Shown here piece by piece: positions 57,391 through 63,845 of a DNA stretch of 64,000 bases (its first letter is position 1; each line of letters opens with the position of its first letter). Under the pieces are notes generated by a model. It was not told the origin of the DNA and ran no database searches. It saw only the letters and a program-made list of their open reading frames with translations. Source of the DNA: an uncultured Lysobacteraceae bacterium (GTDB lineage Bacteria; Pseudomonadota; Gammaproteobacteria; Xanthomonadales; Xanthomonadaceae); contig CADECF010000002.1 of assembly GCA_902825775.1 (NCBI GenBank), forward strand, positions 186,001 through 250,000, written 5' to 3'. The translations under genes were made by a program, and so were the position numbers.

Positions 57391-58514
57391 AGGAAGTCGT
57401 CGAACTCGCCAAGGAGCTGCTGCTGCGCCCGTCGGTCACGCCCGATGACGCCGGCTGCCAAGCGTTGATCGCAGAACGTTTGCAACGCGCTGGTTTCCTT
57501 TGCGAACAACTGCGTTTCGGCGAGGTGGACAATCTTTGGGCCACGCACGGCAGCGGCGGCCCCGTGCTCGCGCTGCTCGGCCATACCGATGTGGTGCCCG
57601 CGGGTCCGCGCGAAAGCTGGTCCAGCGATCCGTTCGTGCCGGAAATCCGCGACGGCGTGTTGTACGGCCGCGGCGCGGCCGACATGAAAGGCAGCGTCGC
57701 CGCATTCGTGATCGCGCTGGAGCGTTTCGCCGCCGCGCATCCGGGCCACCCCGGCACGGTGGCGCTGCTGCTGACTTCGGACGAAGAGGGCGATGCCATC
57801 GACGGCGTGCGCCATGTCGCCGATGTTTTCCGCGAACGCGGACAGAAGATCGACTGGTGCATCACCGGCGAGCCCTCGTCGCAAGACAAGCTCGGCGATC
57901 TGCTCCGCGTCGGCCGCCGCGGCACTTTGTCCGCGACCTTGAGCGTGAAGGGCGTACAGGGCCACGTCGCGTATCCGGAAAAGGCGCGCAATCCCATCCA
58001 CCAGGCGATGCCGGCGTTGGCCGAACTCGCAGCGCATCGCTGGGACGAAGGTTACGAATCGTTCCCGCCCACCAGCCTGCAGATCAGCAATGTGCATGCC
58101 GGTACCGGCGCCAACAATGTGATTCCGGGCGAGCTGCAGGCGCTTTTCAACCTGCGCTATAACCCGCATTGGCGCGCCGAACAGCTCGAGCAACGATGCG
58201 AATCGGTACTGCGCGCGCATGGTCTCGAATACAGCGTGCATTGGCACCGCGGCGGCGAGCCGTTCTACACGCCAGAAGGCCCGCTGCGCAACGCCGCGCG
58301 CGAGGTGCTGGCGCGGTTCTCGGGCGCGGCACCCGAAGAAAGCACCGGCGGCGGCACGTCCGACGCGCGCTTCATCGCCCCGCTCGGCGCCCAGTGCGTC
58401 GAGATCGGCCCGGTCAACGCCAGTATCCATAAGGTCGACGAACATGTGGCGGTGGCCGATCTGGAAATTTTGCCCGACCTTTACTTAGCCCTGATCGAGC
58501 GTCTGCTGCTTTAG
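57387..58514 (+). CDS. dapE: Succinyl-diaminopimelate desuccinylase
   Basis: Di-zinc hydrolase releasing L,L-diaminopimelate. 375 residues, equal to E. coli DapE. Metal ligands: His66 in LLGHTDVV, Asp99 in [10 protein letters not shown], Glu134 in TSDEEGDA and the His near the end in SIHKVDEHV. The start is GTG at 57387, overlapping the ArsC-like stop. Together with dapD it supplies lysine and peptidoglycan precursor from aspartate, the same amino acid asnB uses. Confidence 0.96.
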
Positions 58515-58529
58515 CTCTGCTTCTGCTGT

Positions 58530-58636
58530 TGCCCCCTTTACCGAAGGGGGCTACGGGGGATTTGCTCTTGATCTTGCTGTGAAGGCAAGCGCCAAAAGCA
58601 AATCCCCCTCGGTCCCCCTTTTTCAAAGGGAGAAAC
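58530..58636. repeat. Inverted repeat, family E
   Basis: CCCCCTTTACCGAAGGGGGC + GGGGGATTTGCTCTTG and, inverted, AAAAGCAAATCCCCCTCGG + TCCCCCTTTTTCAAAGGGAG. Pieces of the same sequence flank the family A copy at 32713. It occupies the first part of the 431-bp dapE-asnB gap. Confidence 0.82.
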
Positions 58637-58721
58637 AGCCTTGGCCGGGTCGAGCCCCCGCTGGCGTTTGATCAAAGAACAGGGCTTGCCAGCCCGCGGG
58701 GAAACAGGTTAGGTTGCAGCC

Positions 58722-58817
58722 ATGCATCGCCGGTCCGCCAACGCCAACCGCAATTCCAATAACCGCAATAATCTGCGCTCGAATAATCGTGCGCGGCCGC
58801 TGCGGGTCTGCGACTAG
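58722..58817 (+). CDS. Asparagine-rich leader peptide upstream of asnB
   Basis: A 31-codon ORF, too short for routine annotation: begins MHRRSANANRNSNNRNNLRS and ends NNRARPLRVCD. Nine of 31 codons are Asn (residues 7, 9, 11, 13, 14, 16, 17, 21, 22) and eight are Arg. Six of the nine Asn codons are AAT although the genome favours GC-ending codons. AGG lies eight bases before the ATG as a weak ribosome site. A terminator follows 27 nt after the stop, and asnB, the asparagine synthetase gene, follows that. This is the arrangement of amino-acid attenuator leaders (compare hisL with seven His codons, thrL, pheL). Function inferred; not tested. Confidence 0.75.
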   Translation: MHRRSANANRNSNNRNNLRSNNRARPLRVCD

Positions 58818-58843
58818 GCAAGGCAACACCAAGCCCAACGTCC

Positions 58844-58872
58844 AAAACCCGCGCCGCAAGCGCGGGTTTTTT
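58844..58872 (+). terminator. Intrinsic terminator in the asnB leader
   Basis: AAAACCCGCG-CCGCAAG-CGCGGGTTTTTT: a 6-bp all-GC stem extended by four A-T pairs and ending in T6. Flanking CCAAC (58835-58839) and GTTGG (58873-58877) can lengthen it. It lies 74 nt before the asnB ATG, so it must be read through for asnB expression. Confidence 0.9.
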
Positions 58873-58946
58873 GTTGGCCGCAACGTTCGAGAGAAAAACC
58901 GCAGGCCCCTCCACATTCTTTTTTTTTGCGAAATCAGGAGTCAGAC

Positions 58947-60635
58947 ATGTGTTCCATCCTCGGTATCTTCGGCCTGCAGCCGGGCGACGACATCGGCGCA
59001 TTGCGTCGCCAGGCGTTGGATCTTTCGCAGAAGCAGCGCCATCGCGGCCCCGATTGGAGCGGCGTCTATCTCGACGAGGGCGCGATCCTGGTGCATGAGC
59101 GCCTGGCCATCGTCGATCCCGCAGGCGGTTCGCAACCGCTGCGCTCGTCCGATGGCGAGCTGGTGCTGGCGGTCAATGGCGAGATCTACAACCACCGCGA
59201 GCTGAAGAAGGAACTGACCCAGCCTTACGCCTTCCAGACCGGTTCGGACTGCGAGGTGATCAACGCGCTGTACCGCGAAGACGAGCCCGCCTCGTTCCTC
59301 AACCGCCTCAACGGCATTTTCGCTTTCGCGTTGTGGGATAAATCCCGGCAGCGCGTGATCGTCGCCCGCGATCCGATCGGCGTTTGCCCGCTGTACTGGG
59401 GCCACGATCGCGAAGGCCGGTTGTGCGTGGCCTCGGAAATGAAAGCGCTCGCCGGCCTCTGCGCCGACGTCGCCCAGTTTCCGCCCGGTCATTGGTACGA
59501 CAGCGCCAGCGGCCAGTTGCAGAAGTACTACATCAAGCCGTGGCGCGATTACGACGCGACCCAGGGCGTGAAAGTATCGCCGCAGGAACTGCGCGAAGCC
59601 TTCGAACGCGCCGTCCACCGGCAACTGATGACCGACGTGCCTTACGGCGTGCTGCTGTCCGGCGGACTGGATTCCTCGCTGGTCGCGGCCTGCGCGGCGC
59701 GCTTCGCCCGCAACCGCGTCGAAGAAGACGACACGTCCGAGGCTTGGTGGCCGCGCCTGCACTCGTTCGCGATCGGTTTGGAAGGTTCGCCCGATCTGGC
59801 GGCGGCCGAAGTAGCCGCAGCGGCGCTCGGCACCGTGCACCACGGCTTCAAATACAGCTTCGACGAAGGCCTGGACGCGCTGCCGGAAGTGATCCGCCAC
59901 ATCGAAACCTACGACGTCACCACCATCCGCGCGTCCACGCCGATGTATCTGCTGGCGCGGCGGATCAAGGCGATGGGGGTGAAGATGGTGCTGTCCGGCG
60001 AAGGTTCCGACGAGATCTTCGGCGGCTATCTGTATTTCCACAAGGCGCCGAACGCGCGGGAATTCCATGAGGAACTGGTACGCAAACTCGACGCGCTCTA
60101 CAACTACGACTGCCTGCGCGCCAACAAGTCGATGATGGCCTGGGGCGTGGAGCCGCGGGTGCCTTTCCTCGACGTCGAATTCCTCGACGTCGCGATGAGG
60201 ATGGATGCGCAAGCCAAGATGGTGGACAAGACGGGCAAAGGCAGAAAGGGCATCGAAAAGGCGGTGCTGCGCGAAGCGTTCGAAGGCTATCTGCCCGATT
60301 CGATCCTGTGGCGGCAGAAGGAACAGTTCAGCGACGGCGTCGGCTACGGCTGGATCGACGGTTTGAAGGCGCATGCGGAAAAACAGGTCAGCGATCGCGA
60401 GCTTGCGGCCGCCGACAAGCGTTTCCCCATCAATCCGCCGCAGACCAAAGAGGCCTACTACTACCGCAGCCTATTCGAGCAGGCTTTTCCGGGCGCCGCC
60501 TGCGCGGAAACGGTGCCGGGCGGCAAGTCGATCGCTTGCTCGTCGCCGGCTGCGATTGCTTGGGATGCGAGTTTCGCCGCGGCGGCAGATCCATCCGGGC
60601 GCGCGATAGCCGGCGTGCACAACGCCGCGCTCTGA
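58947..60635 (+). CDS. asnB: Asparagine synthase B (glutamine-hydrolysing)
   Basis: Makes Asn from Asp, ATP and Gln. 562 residues (E. coli AsnB 554). The N-terminal nucleophile Cys directly follows Met (MCSILGIFGL), which fixes the start at 58947; AGGAG lies six bases upstream. Glutaminase domain to about 190 (RHRGPDWSG, VNGEIYNHRELK), then the ATP-pyrophosphatase domain with LLSGGLDSSLVAA near 237 and LSGEGSDEIFGGYLYF. The last about 45 residues are an Ala/Ser-rich tail. A nine-T tract lies 19 bases before the ATG. It appears to be the only gene in its transcription unit downstream of the leader. Confidence 0.97.
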   Translation: MCSILGIFGLQPGDDIGALRRQALDLSQKQRHRGPDWSGVYLDEGAILVHERLAIVDPAGGSQPLRSSDGELVLAVNGEIYNHRELKKELTQPYAFQTGSDCEVINALYREDEPASFLNRLNGIFAFALWDKSRQRVIVARDPIGVCPLYWGHDREGRLCVASEMKALAGLCADVAQFPPGHWYDSASGQLQKYYIKPWRDYDATQGVKVSPQELREAFERAVHRQLMTDVPYGVLLSGGLDSSLVAACAARFARNRVEEDDTSEAWWPRLHSFAIGLEGSPDLAAAEVAAAALGTVHHGFKYSFDEGLDALPEVIRHIETYDVTTIRASTPMYLLARRIKAMGVKMVLSGEGSDEIFGGYLYFHKAPNAREFHEELVRKLDALYNYDCLRANKSMMAWGVEPRVPFLDVEFLDVAMRMDAQAKMVDKTGKGRKGIEKAVLREAFEGYLPDSILWRQKEQFSDGVGYGWIDGLKAHAEKQVSDRELAAADKRFPINPPQTKEAYYYRSLFEQAFPGAACAETVPGGKSIACSSPAAIAWDASFAAAADPSGRAIAGVHNAAL

Positions 60636-60729: not shown

Positions 60730-63156
60730 TCAGCGCGCAGGTTCGAGTTTCAACGTGTATTCCGCCTCGCCCGGCAAGAACGGTGTCGGCCGCCCATGCA
60801 CCCAGTCCTCGTGGCCCGCGCCCCAGAACGGCGACAACGGATTGCCTGCTTGCCCGCCGGGCATGTGCACGATGCCGTCGGCTTCGTGGCCCGGCGACAC
60901 CACCATGCGTTCGGATGCGCCGAAAGCAGGTCCGGCGACGCGAGGCATCGCGGTATCGCCGTCCAATCGATCCGGCGGCATGCAAAGCACGCGCTTTCCG
61001 ATCAGCGGAATCGCTTTCGCCAGGGGATGGCAGATGGCGGCAGTGTTGCGCTCGCCCCAGGTGCGTTCGGCCAACGGGCCCTTCTTCGAGAATTCGCCGG
61101 CCACTTCGGCGGCGGCGTCTTCGAACAAGGCATCCCAGGAGGCGAAACGGCGCGGCAACAGGTGCGCCGGCCGTTGCGTCACCAGGGGCCAGGCCACGCC
61201 TTCCAGTTGCGACAGGCCGGGCATGTCGAAGTCGTCGCCCAGAGCGGCCTGCGCAGGTGCGGTCAATCCGTCGGCGATGCGTGCGTTCACCGCCAAGCGC
61301 CAGGCACGGACGATGCGATAGCTGACCGAATCGGCGCTGGCACGTCCCTGCCATGCGCTCGCCGCATTCGCCAGCGCCTGCAACGACGGCGATTCGGCGT
61401 GTTGCGATTGCTCGCGCAGCAGGCGCCACCACCGTTCCAGGAACAAGGCGCGATCGTCGAGCTGTATCGCCAGCAAATCGCGCTCGGTGAAGACGCGTTT
61501 GGCGAACAGGCCATCGCGGATCTGCTTCGCGCGCGCGCCGAGCGCGTAACCGCCGTCGCCGAGCTCCGCCAGGGCCTGGCCGTCTACGACGCGTGCGTTC
61601 GCGGTCCAAAGCCTGCCGTCGTGCGGCGCGGGAATCGAAGGGTTGGCCGCGCGCCACTTCCACCACGGCATCTCGCAGGGATCGTGAGGGCCGGGTACCC
61701 AGCCCGGAAGCGGCGGATCGGACGGCGGCGTCGACGCTTGCGGGCGATCGGGGAGGCAACTGGGCCTGCGTTCGGGAATGCGTCCGGCGATCGTCCATTC
61801 GATATGGCCAGCGCGATCGGCGACCACGAAATTCTGACCGGGTATGCCAAAACCGGATGCCGAAGCGGCCGCCTGCGCCGCGTCGGCCGCCGTCGCCATG
61901 CCGGCCAGTCCGAAGTTGAGCGAGCCGGGAAGATGCGCACTCCAGCGCAGGGCCAGCGACGTGCCGTCCTTGAGGTCGTGCATGATCGGACCGGCGCGCG
62001 TTTCGCGCACTTCGAAAGGCACCGGATCGGCACCGGCGACGCGGATCGTTTCTTCGATGGTCGCGACGGTTTCCGGCATGTACGGCGACGGGCATGCCGG
62101 CTCGGGCCCTTGCGGAGCCGTTGGGCACAGCCGCACCCAATCCATCCAGTCGCCGTAGCTATTGGTGAAGGCCCAGGCGACATGGCCGTTGCTGCCCACG
62201 ACGACCGCCGGCAGGCCGGGCAGGGTGAAACCGGTCAAGTCGACCTTGCCGCCGGGCGCGCGGGCATCGGCGTAACGCAATCTCGCGCGGAACCAGATGT
62301 TGGGCGCGCGCAGGCCCAGGTGCATGTCGTCGGCGACGATCGCGCGGCCGTCGCGCGTCAACGCGCCGGAGACCGCGAAATTATTGCTGCCGTTTTCGGG
62401 CTTCGAAATCAGTTTCAGGTCGCGTGCCTGGGCCGGCATGGGCAGCGTGCGCAGGTTCAGCTCGCCGGCGCCGGGCAGCACCGCGTCGCCGCGCGCTTCG
62501 CCCATCAGCGGCGCATCCCAGGTCGAGCCCGGATTCTGCAGCAGGCGCAGCAACGCCGGCGGCACGTGCGCCGAGATTTTCCACATCGCGTACTCGTCTC
62601 CGTTGTCTTCGCCCTGCAGGTCGAAGAACATCGCGTAGCCGGTCAATGCCGAATCGGCCAAGCGCCAGGGTTGCGGGTCCTGCCGCAGCAGCAGGTAAGG
62701 CCATGGCTCGGCGCGCAAGTCGCGCAGGCCGGCGTTGACGCCTTCGGTATAGGCGCGCAATTGCGGCAATTTGTCGCCGGCGACAGCGGCGATGTTCTTT
62801 TCGACACGGGCGCGGAAGCGATGGATGCGGTGGCGCTTGTCGGTATCGACGGCTATGGACCCGAACAGTTCGGCCAGCTCGCCCGCAGCCGTGCGCCGCA
62901 TCAGGTCCATCTCGAAAAAACGTTCCTGCGCATGCACGTAACCGAGCGCGCGCATGGCGTCGGTTTCGTTGGCGGCATCGATGGTGACGATGCCGAGTTT
63001 GTCGCGCTGGATCGTGACCGGCGCGGACAGCCCGTGCAGGGCCAGTTCGCCGTCCATCCGAGGCAGGCTGCCGCGCAGTTGCCACCAGGCGGCGGCGAAA
63101 ACCAAAACCAGCAGAACCAGAAGCGCTAAACCCGTGCGTTTGAACCACTTCGACAT
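60730..63156 (-). CDS. Penicillin acylase family (Ntn-hydrolase) protein
   Basis: 808-residue precursor of the S45 family. An N-terminal membrane anchor or signal (LALLVLLVLVFAAAWW, about 10-25), then the alpha chain, and the autocleavage/nucleophile site ENGSNNFAVSG with Ser at residue 257. The beta chain contains VVVGSNGHVAWAFTNSYGDW and the C-terminal MVVSPGHEADGIVHMPGGQA. Family enzymes cleave amides such as beta-lactam side chains or acyl-homoserine lactones; the substrate cannot be read from sequence. AGGGGAA precedes the ATG. The upstream tpm ends 29 bases before it, so the two may be co-transcribed. Confidence 0.9.
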   Translation of the reverse strand: MSKWFKRTGLALLVLLVLVFAAAWWQLRGSLPRMDGELALHGLSAPVTIQRDKLGIVTIDAANETDAMRALGYVHAQERFFEMDLMRRTAAGELAELFGSIAVDTDKRHRIHRFRARVEKNIAAVAGDKLPQLRAYTEGVNAGLRDLRAEPWPYLLLRQDPQPWRLADSALTGYAMFFDLQGEDNGDEYAMWKISAHVPPALLRLLQNPGSTWDAPLMGEARGDAVLPGAGELNLRTLPMPAQARDLKLISKPENGSNNFAVSGALTRDGRAIVADDMHLGLRAPNIWFRARLRYADARAPGGKVDLTGFTLPGLPAVVVGSNGHVAWAFTNSYGDWMDWVRLCPTAPQGPEPACPSPYMPETVATIEETIRVAGADPVPFEVRETRAGPIMHDLKDGTSLALRWSAHLPGSLNFGLAGMATAADAAQAAASASGFGIPGQNFVVADRAGHIEWTIAGRIPERRPSCLPDRPQASTPPSDPPLPGWVPGPHDPCEMPWWKWRAANPSIPAPHDGRLWTANARVVDGQALAELGDGGYALGARAKQIRDGLFAKRVFTERDLLAIQLDDRALFLERWWRLLREQSQHAESPSLQALANAASAWQGRASADSVSYRIVRAWRLAVNARIADGLTAPAQAALGDDFDMPGLSQLEGVAWPLVTQRPAHLLPRRFASWDALFEDAAAEVAGEFSKKGPLAERTWGERNTAAICHPLAKAIPLIGKRVLCMPPDRLDGDTAMPRVAGPAFGASERMVVSPGHEADGIVHMPGGQAGNPLSPFWGAGHEDWVHGRPTPFLPGEAEYTLKLEPAR

Positions 63157-63185
63157 GCATTTCCCCTGGTATCGGTCGACCGCGA

Positions 63186-63845
63186 TCAGTCCCGGCGCGT
63201 CATGCGGTAAACCGCAGTGTGCAGGGCGGTGACGCCCTCGGCGACGAAACCCGGCTGCGTGGCGAGGATATCGCGCCGCTCGAGGGTTTCGACACTCCAT
63301 TCGGTAGCGAAAAGGCCACGCACCTCGTCTTTATCCACGGAAAACGGCGGACCTTGCTTCTCGCGCTGCGGATATTCCAGGGTGACCAGCAGGCCGCGGC
63401 AGCCGCCCGGCAATTTCCAATACAGGTCGAGCGCATAGCGCCGCCGCATATCGGCCGGCAGCGCGATCAGTGCGGCGCGGTCGTAGACGCCTTCGCATCC
63501 GGCCAGGGCATCGGCACCCAGCGCGAAGGCATCCCCCTGGATCAGCTCGATCTCGCCGGCGACGTAGTGCCTGCCGAGCCGGCTTTCGCGTATTTCGGGC
63601 TTCAGTGCGTTTTCGTCGAAGAATTGTTCTACCGCGATCCGCGACAACTCCACGCCGAGCACGCGGTGCCCGCGCGATGCCAGCCAAAGCATGTCCAGCG
63701 ACTTGCCGGCCAACGGTACGAACACACGGCTGCCGACGGGCAGGACAAGCGCATCCCAGTGCCGTTCCAGCAACGGCGTGACGCGATCCTGATGGAAGCC
63801 GATTTGGCCGTCGCGCCAACGTTGTTGCCAGAAATCGGCTTCCAC
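63186..63845 (-). CDS. tpm: Thiopurine S-methyltransferase family protein
   Basis: 219-residue SAM-dependent methyltransferase. VEADFWQQRWRDGQIGFHQD at the start, the SAM motif VFVPLAGKSLDMLWLASRGH + RVLGVELS, and VYDRAALIALPADMR are diagnostic of bacterial Tpm, which methylates thiopurines and oxidised selenium/tellurium compounds. The start is GTG at 63845 with GGAG five bases upstream; no in-frame ATG fits. It is preceded by a repeat of family F. Confidence 0.93.
   Translation of the reverse strand: MEADFWQQRWRDGQIGFHQDRVTPLLERHWDALVLPVGSRVFVPLAGKSLDMLWLASRGHRVLGVELSRIAVEQFFDENALKPEIRESRLGRHYVAGEIELIQGDAFALGADALAGCEGVYDRAALIALPADMRRRYALDLYWKLPGGCRGLLVTLEYPQREKQGPPFSVDKDEVRGLFATEWSVETLERRDILATQPGFVAEGVTALHTAVYRMTRRD

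Follow-up and report, generated by a model that had tools for sequence, protein, structure and literature searches.

The asnB gene in the window, as we call the whole stretch of 64,000 nucleotides analysed here, is very probably controlled by a ribosome-mediated transcription attenuator that, judging from the sequence, senses charged Asn-tRNA. Several features that mark classical attenuators were found together at this gene, namely a short leader ORF with repeated codons for a single amino acid, a target gene whose biosynthetic product matches that amino acid, an intrinsic terminator and, by computation, a conserved antiterminator that is formed from the leader RNA and excludes the terminator (Table 1). 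An Asn-tRNA(Asn)-sensing attenuator acting on asnB is also what the original prediction had put forward, and this reading is supported by the conservation of the leader, by the presence of AsnRS and by the failure to find GatB in the genome.

Table 1. Features of the asnB leader region, in positions of the window
Feature	Position	Strand	Basis
Predicted -35 element, TTGCCA	58686..58691	+	sequence
Predicted -10 element, TAGGTT, weak (3 of 6 consensus bases), 6 nt before the leader ATG	58710..58715	+	sequence
Leader peptide ORF, 31 codons plus TAG, 9 Asn	58722..58817	+	sequence; found again in relatives
Regulatory Asn codon cluster, residues 7-22	58740..58787	+	sequence
Segment 1, CCGCA, forms a 1:2 helix (candidate protector hairpin) with 58801-58805 when the RNA folds without a ribosome	58763..58767	+	fold of the window only
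Segment 2, antiterminator 5' side, core GCGGGU 58802-58807, in the last leader codons	58793..58814	+	fold, covariation
Segment 3, antiterminator 3' side, holds the terminator 5' arm, core ACCCGC 58847-58852	58840..58857	+	fold, covariation
Intrinsic terminator, stem 58844-58854/58860-58870, loop 58855-58859, T run 58867-58872	58844..58872	+	fold, -18.0 kcal/mol
Shine-Dalgarno AGGAG of asnB	58936..58940	+	sequence; Shine-Dalgarno word there in 161 of 167 relatives
asnB, glutamine-hydrolysing asparagine synthase B, 562 aa, regulated gene	58947..60635	+	profile match

The leader ORF encodes MHRRSANANRNSNNRNNLRSNNRARPLRVCD and ends with a TAG codon at 58815-58817. As originally described, it has 31 codons and nine Asn codons within 16 residues, and these nine, which are all the Asn of the peptide, fall in residues 7-22. 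The window has 477 ORFs of 12-100 aa, of which the runners-up carry four Asn in 16 residues, and the maximum reached in 150 simulated first-order Markov windows was five. Dinucleotide shuffles of the upstreams of 184 relatives (five each, 920 in total), scored with an ORF rule slightly unlike the one used for the layout count given below, produced four Asn in seven cases and five Asn in none. A chance ORF was rejected on these simulated windows and shuffles. The 167 leaders found in relatives, which are related and thus non-independent sequences in every count given over them, use both Asn codons (AAT 530 times, AAC 574 times) and seldom their one-step neighbours (AAA 16, AAG 19). In the 153 distinct leaders, Asn makes up 18.7% of the residues, which is 10.3 times its share in four window-encoded proteins and 8.7 times what base composition predicts. 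Leader length ranges from 20 to 53 aa across relatives, and the N-terminal parts differ. The stop codon in the 167 relatives is TAG in 149, TAA in 13 and TGA in 5, a preference that perhaps reflects pairing or slow release.

For the comparison, the material consisted of 80 loci with AsnB relatives, 29 loci from a search of the order (299 genomes), 120 upstreams from these genomes and the window itself; upstreams identical over their last 250 nt were removed, which left 220. The close-relative set comprises 172 of these (the window, L002-L045 and L082-L218, grouped by locus number), and 161 of them have an ORF with at least four Asn in 16 residues followed by a terminator no more than 80 nt past its stop. 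Six further close relatives show the same layout with three Asn (L016, L027, L045, L089, L197 and L217). Five upstreams are left: L014, L033 and L042 come from records labelled Holophagales, Rhodococcus and Deltaproteobacteria, respectively, and in L144 and L145 the element is present farther upstream, with four Asn. The original prediction had proposed just such a comparison of asnB upstreams; Asn codons, frame, terminator and position all recur, and the outcome it had named as adverse, no conservation of Asn codons or frame, did not occur. Because the Asn-rich ORF and the terminator recur in this way, asnB is very probably switched on at asparagine shortage. The combination was found in none of the 12 upstreams of family f9 and, among the 36 loci with more distant AsnB proteins (L046-L081, at most 66% identity), in L077 only; two of these 36, L070 and L072, are labelled Lysobacterales or Lysobacteraceae. 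The locus L077, from a metagenome-assembled genome labelled Rubrivirga whose AsnB is 62% identical, has a four-Asn ORF and a strong terminator within 260 nt of asnB, and it either carries an independent attenuator for Asn or sits on a misbinned contig.

The distribution of the element was also followed with a covariance model, R1, that describes the leader tail and the terminator. Thinning of the representatives at 85% core identity left 103, and R1 was built on 100 of them, with L032, L097 and L122 left out; pair counts, given below for all 103, come out almost the same on the 100-row alignment. At loose thresholds (E 0.001 or 0.01) the model finds matches in 246 of the 299 genomes from the order and in 187 of the 274 from the class, and because it is unspecific at this level a cut-off of 49 bits was used. 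At or above this score there are 137 places in the 299 genomes, all of them before asnB, on the same strand and 20-356 nt away from it. These account for 137 of the 138 asnB genomes that are listed for families f1, f2 and f12, which by their named loci include Xanthomonadaceae and Rhodanobacteraceae. This coverage is non-independent, because the model was partly built from those loci; the absence of other equally high-scoring places is independent of them. The one genome missed at 49 bits, G231 (L122), passes the layout test for Asn ORF and terminator and matches R1 with an E-value of 2.0e-7. No strong match was found in f1 or f12 genomes with a more distant AsnB (at least six, namely G091, G237, G067, G230, G277 and G279, with AsnB E-values of 3.6e-235 to 4.2e-246), in the six f1 genomes listed without AsnB or, at 49 bits among the 299 genomes of the order, in families f3 to f11. 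In the 274 genomes of the class, of which just 4 have an AsnB match at E 1e-100, the best R1 match outside the order reaches only 41.1 bits, and the second-best match in the genome of the window scores 29.6 bits. The nine next R1 loci (L234-L242) contain no ORF of 12-50 codons with five Asn in 12. In L262 and L263, of genus g16, some 280-360 nt, which include GC-rich stretches that look repeat-like by eye, separate the attenuator from asnB, which is why the attenuator lies so far from the gene there.

The gene at the end of this arrangement is what it had been taken for: its product matches the NCBIfam asparagine synthase B family with 863 bits, and it is the single match in the genome at E 0.001. 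It is probably the sole gene of its transcription unit, because the next large ORF beyond it, at 60730-63300, lies on the opposite strand. The upstream gene dapE, which has the orientation of asnB, ends at 58514. Between dapE and the leader promoter, at 58525-58639, there are inverted repeats with 38-nt arms that are 71% complementary and 26-nt arms that are 77% complementary. The terminator hairpin has 11 pairs and a z-score of -3.33, and none of 200 shuffles folds as well. The strong terminator of the original prediction is thus upheld, with a correction of its distance: the stem starts 26 nt past the leader stop and not 27 nt. A simple terminator scanner run over 58200-59200 does not list the hairpin at 58844-58872, probably owing to the overlap of stem and T tract.

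The last codons of the leader carry a copy of the core of the terminator 3' arm, so that segment 2 pairs with segment 3 when 58776-58859 of the window is folded. The energy of this fold, -33 kcal/mol, is that of the whole stretch (z -1.89, with 8 of 200 shuffles as good), compared with -18 kcal/mol for the terminator alone. Over the 103 representatives, 84.3% of the antiterminator cells are in standard pairs, against 29.9-43.5% when the partner is slid, and the corresponding value for the terminator is 94.2%. Both sides have changed in 67 antiterminator cells, compared with 37.6 in shuffles (0 of 500 as high), and the covariation is 0.186 against 0.103, values to be read with the warning of the tool itself that kinship alone may beat such shuffles. 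One C on the 5' side of the terminator has a leader G opposite it and no complement in the aligned terminator column in 27 of the 103 representatives (G-C-T in 19, G-C-A in 8), which suggests that this C is kept for the antiterminator. The pairing energy of the leader tail, set against random synonymous recoding, has a median z of -2.2 over the 167 leaders and lies below -1 in 92% of them. The pairing varies among relatives: the pair next to the core is standard in 117 of 145 leaders (G-C 75, A-T 30, G-T 12) and non-standard in 28, a GCGGG-type core was not found in 22 of 167, and in 45 of 103 the outer pair of the antiterminator is left open.

A ribosome covers 13 nt beyond its A site, and folding was computed with this footprint masked. 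With the ribosome at the stop codon, the median probability of the terminator, P(terminator), is 0.98 over the 167 leaders. When the ribosome stands at Asn codons, the equilibrium probability, taken as the per-leader median over these codons, has a median of 0.92 and a lower quartile of 0.17, and the per-leader minimum has a median of 0.79. In the window, the values at the nine Asn codons are 0.97, 0.97, 0.52, 0.31, 0.93, 0.01, 0.00, 0.95 and 0.18, that is, at least 0.93 at four of the nine stall positions. At equilibrium, the folding model thus predicts that stalling clearly lowers termination in part of the species only, and because of this limit the switch between stalling and completion would rest mainly on the order of folding. 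Before the 3' arm exists, the median pairing of the terminator 5' arm, any partner counted, is 30% for a ribosome at the stop, 71% for stalling at Asn and 69% when no ribosome is present; stalling raises this pairing over the stop position by more than 0.3 in 132 of 167 leaders and does not do so in 35. The ribosome-free state is mixed: the median P(terminator) is 0.97, with a value near 0 in L006, and the 5' arm in the window is 95% paired before the 3' arm is made.

Computation supplied the conserved Asn-rich ORF, the terminator, the alternative pairing, their place ahead of asnB, the presence of AsnRS and the failure to find GatB; stalling, readthrough and a leaderless start are inferred, and the proposed mechanism is as follows. 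Transcription would begin at the leader AUG or close to it, with a ribosome translating the leader behind RNA polymerase. When asparagine is ample, the ribosome would reach the UAG codon and cover segment 2, leaving the 5' arm of the terminator free, and transcription would end ahead of asnB. When Asn-tRNA is scarce, the ribosome would stall in the Asn cluster, so that segment 2 could pair with the 5' arm before the 3' arm is made; no terminator would then form, and asnB would be transcribed.

Other readings of the same elements have to be weighed, beginning with the molecule that is sensed. The production of Asn-tRNA from aspartate via GatCAB, which would uncouple the leader from free asparagine, is unsupported: GatB, the subunit looked for, was not found in the genome, which is 98.7% complete, and AsnRS is present there. 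AsnRS matches reach E 1e-30 in 146 of 151 genomes and exceed the cut-off in 140. With AsnRS present and GatB and likewise AsnA not found, charged Asn-tRNA should therefore track free asparagine. An attenuator whose main stall codon is another one, for example Arg, appears very improbable. Arg codons do flank the Asn codons and make up 13.5% of the leader residues, 1.7 times their share in the proteins of the window, but this is the expectation from base composition (ratio 1.0), unlike the excess of Asn, and the product of the target gene makes asparagine. It is also very improbable that the small Asn-rich peptide acts in trans and that attenuation is a side issue. The available part of a report on Sinorhizobium (PMC7298713) offers a precedent in peTrpL, which acts in trans; against such a role stand the spread of leader lengths and the variable N-terminal parts, a codon choice at the C-terminal end that favours RNA pairing, and the position of all 137 strong R1 matches before asnB. 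That the hairpin is simply the terminator of dapE, with a chance ORF beside it, is hardly credible: the simple scanner lists no terminator on the + strand between dapE, which has the same orientation, and the hairpin, but this idea is contradicted by the comparative data, in which the Asn content is far above chance and conserved and the alternative pairing covaries.

More weight goes to an alternative that would leave attenuation by Asn codons intact and concerns only how the leader is transcribed. The predicted transcription start lies at about 58722. A TTGC.. / T....T pair with a 17-18 nt spacer precedes the leader in 165 of 167 relatives, and, with the start codon picked by promoter score, 6-7 nt separate it from the end of the -10 element in 156 of 167; when start codons are ignored, the ATG that follows the best promoter-like site is 5-8 nt from it in 130 of 167 leaders, 129 of these in frame with the Asn ORF. 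A Shine-Dalgarno word is missing in 146 of the 167 leaders, compared with 6 of 167 for asnB. The promoter-like site 6 nt before the ATG and the lack of a Shine-Dalgarno word therefore suggest a leaderless start, and the leader mRNA is probably leaderless, which we consider likelier than an ordinary 5' UTR. Transcription from farther upstream of 58722, so that only the leaderless start would be wrong, is rather unlikely, although it draws on several observations: a scan for consensus promoters lists none in 58200-59200, the proposed site matches 8 of 12 consensus bases, promoter scores barely exceed those of shuffled DNA (median 9.0 against 8.5), and for 37 of the 167 leaders the distance from the best promoter-like site to the next ATG falls outside 5-8 nt. 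The regular spacing in the other 130 leaders and the missing Shine-Dalgarno words speak for the leaderless start.

Classical attenuators are known for Trp, His, Thr, Phe and the branched-chain amino acids, with trpL, hisL, thrL, leuL, ilv and pheL as the proteobacterial leaders. The asnB leader resembles these in its ORF rich in codons for the product, in the mutually exclusive antiterminator and terminator, and in a stop codon that adjoins segment 2; it differs in sensing asparagine, as predicted, in having the single gene asnB as target and perhaps in being leaderless. A known riboswitch, a T-box or another Rfam leader was rejected, as no Rfam family matches at its gathering score. The best Rfam match over the region, RF00512 (Leu_leader), extends over the whole model length (E 6.4e-4) but scores 28.2 bits against a gathering score of 50, and the asnB leader has no run of Leu codons. 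Related arrangements were seen at L253-L257, L259 and L261, where leader ORFs with a run such as LVLVLITSPTGAGRTGV, ending in VLITSP, precede a gene that we take, by eye and from recall, to be ilvC-like. These leaders resemble the asnB leader in that the tail contains GCGGG and is followed, after a short spacer, by a similar GC-rich terminator; they carry branched-chain and Thr codons instead of Asn. TTGACA occurs upstream in four of the five ilvC-type leaders examined, and these leaders may be leaderless as well. We put forward, tentatively and as a possibility less likely true than not, a leaderless attenuator class in families f1, f2 and f12, in which asparagine would be sensed by a leader peptide whose translation begins at the first nucleotide of the transcript, and in which one 3' module (GCGGG tail, stop, short spacer and GC-rich terminator) is combined with other sensor codons too, as before ilvC.

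A close parallel for the leaderless start is the trpL attenuator RNA of Sinorhizobium meliloti, whose 5' end is the ATG of the leader ORF according to the available part of its report (PMC7298713). For the asnB leader a start at the leader ATG is a prediction; the trpL leader differs in responding to tryptophan and in belonging to Alphaproteobacteria. No asparagine leader peptide was found in the open literature, as represented by listings and the beginnings of abstracts, and a prior mention is possible in subscription papers such as a 2004 proteobacterial survey. Neither asparagine nor asnB appears in the available main text of Naville and Gautheret 2010 or of a 2005 survey of attenuators in Actinobacteria, and for Xanthomonadales together with attenuation the open literature, in the same partial form, returned only Gram-positive his genes.

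Taken as predicted, the element belongs to the classical attenuators, senses an amino acid new to them and is probably leaderless; it is conserved in three related families with this asnB. It would add a newly sensed amino acid to the classical roster and would explain how asnB may be regulated in these bacteria. If the shared 3' module is real, new amino-acid specificities would arise by a change of the codon run alone. Finally, a natural sensor of Asn-tRNA with many natural variants, perhaps leaderless, would provide a test bed for the coupling of ribosome and polymerase.
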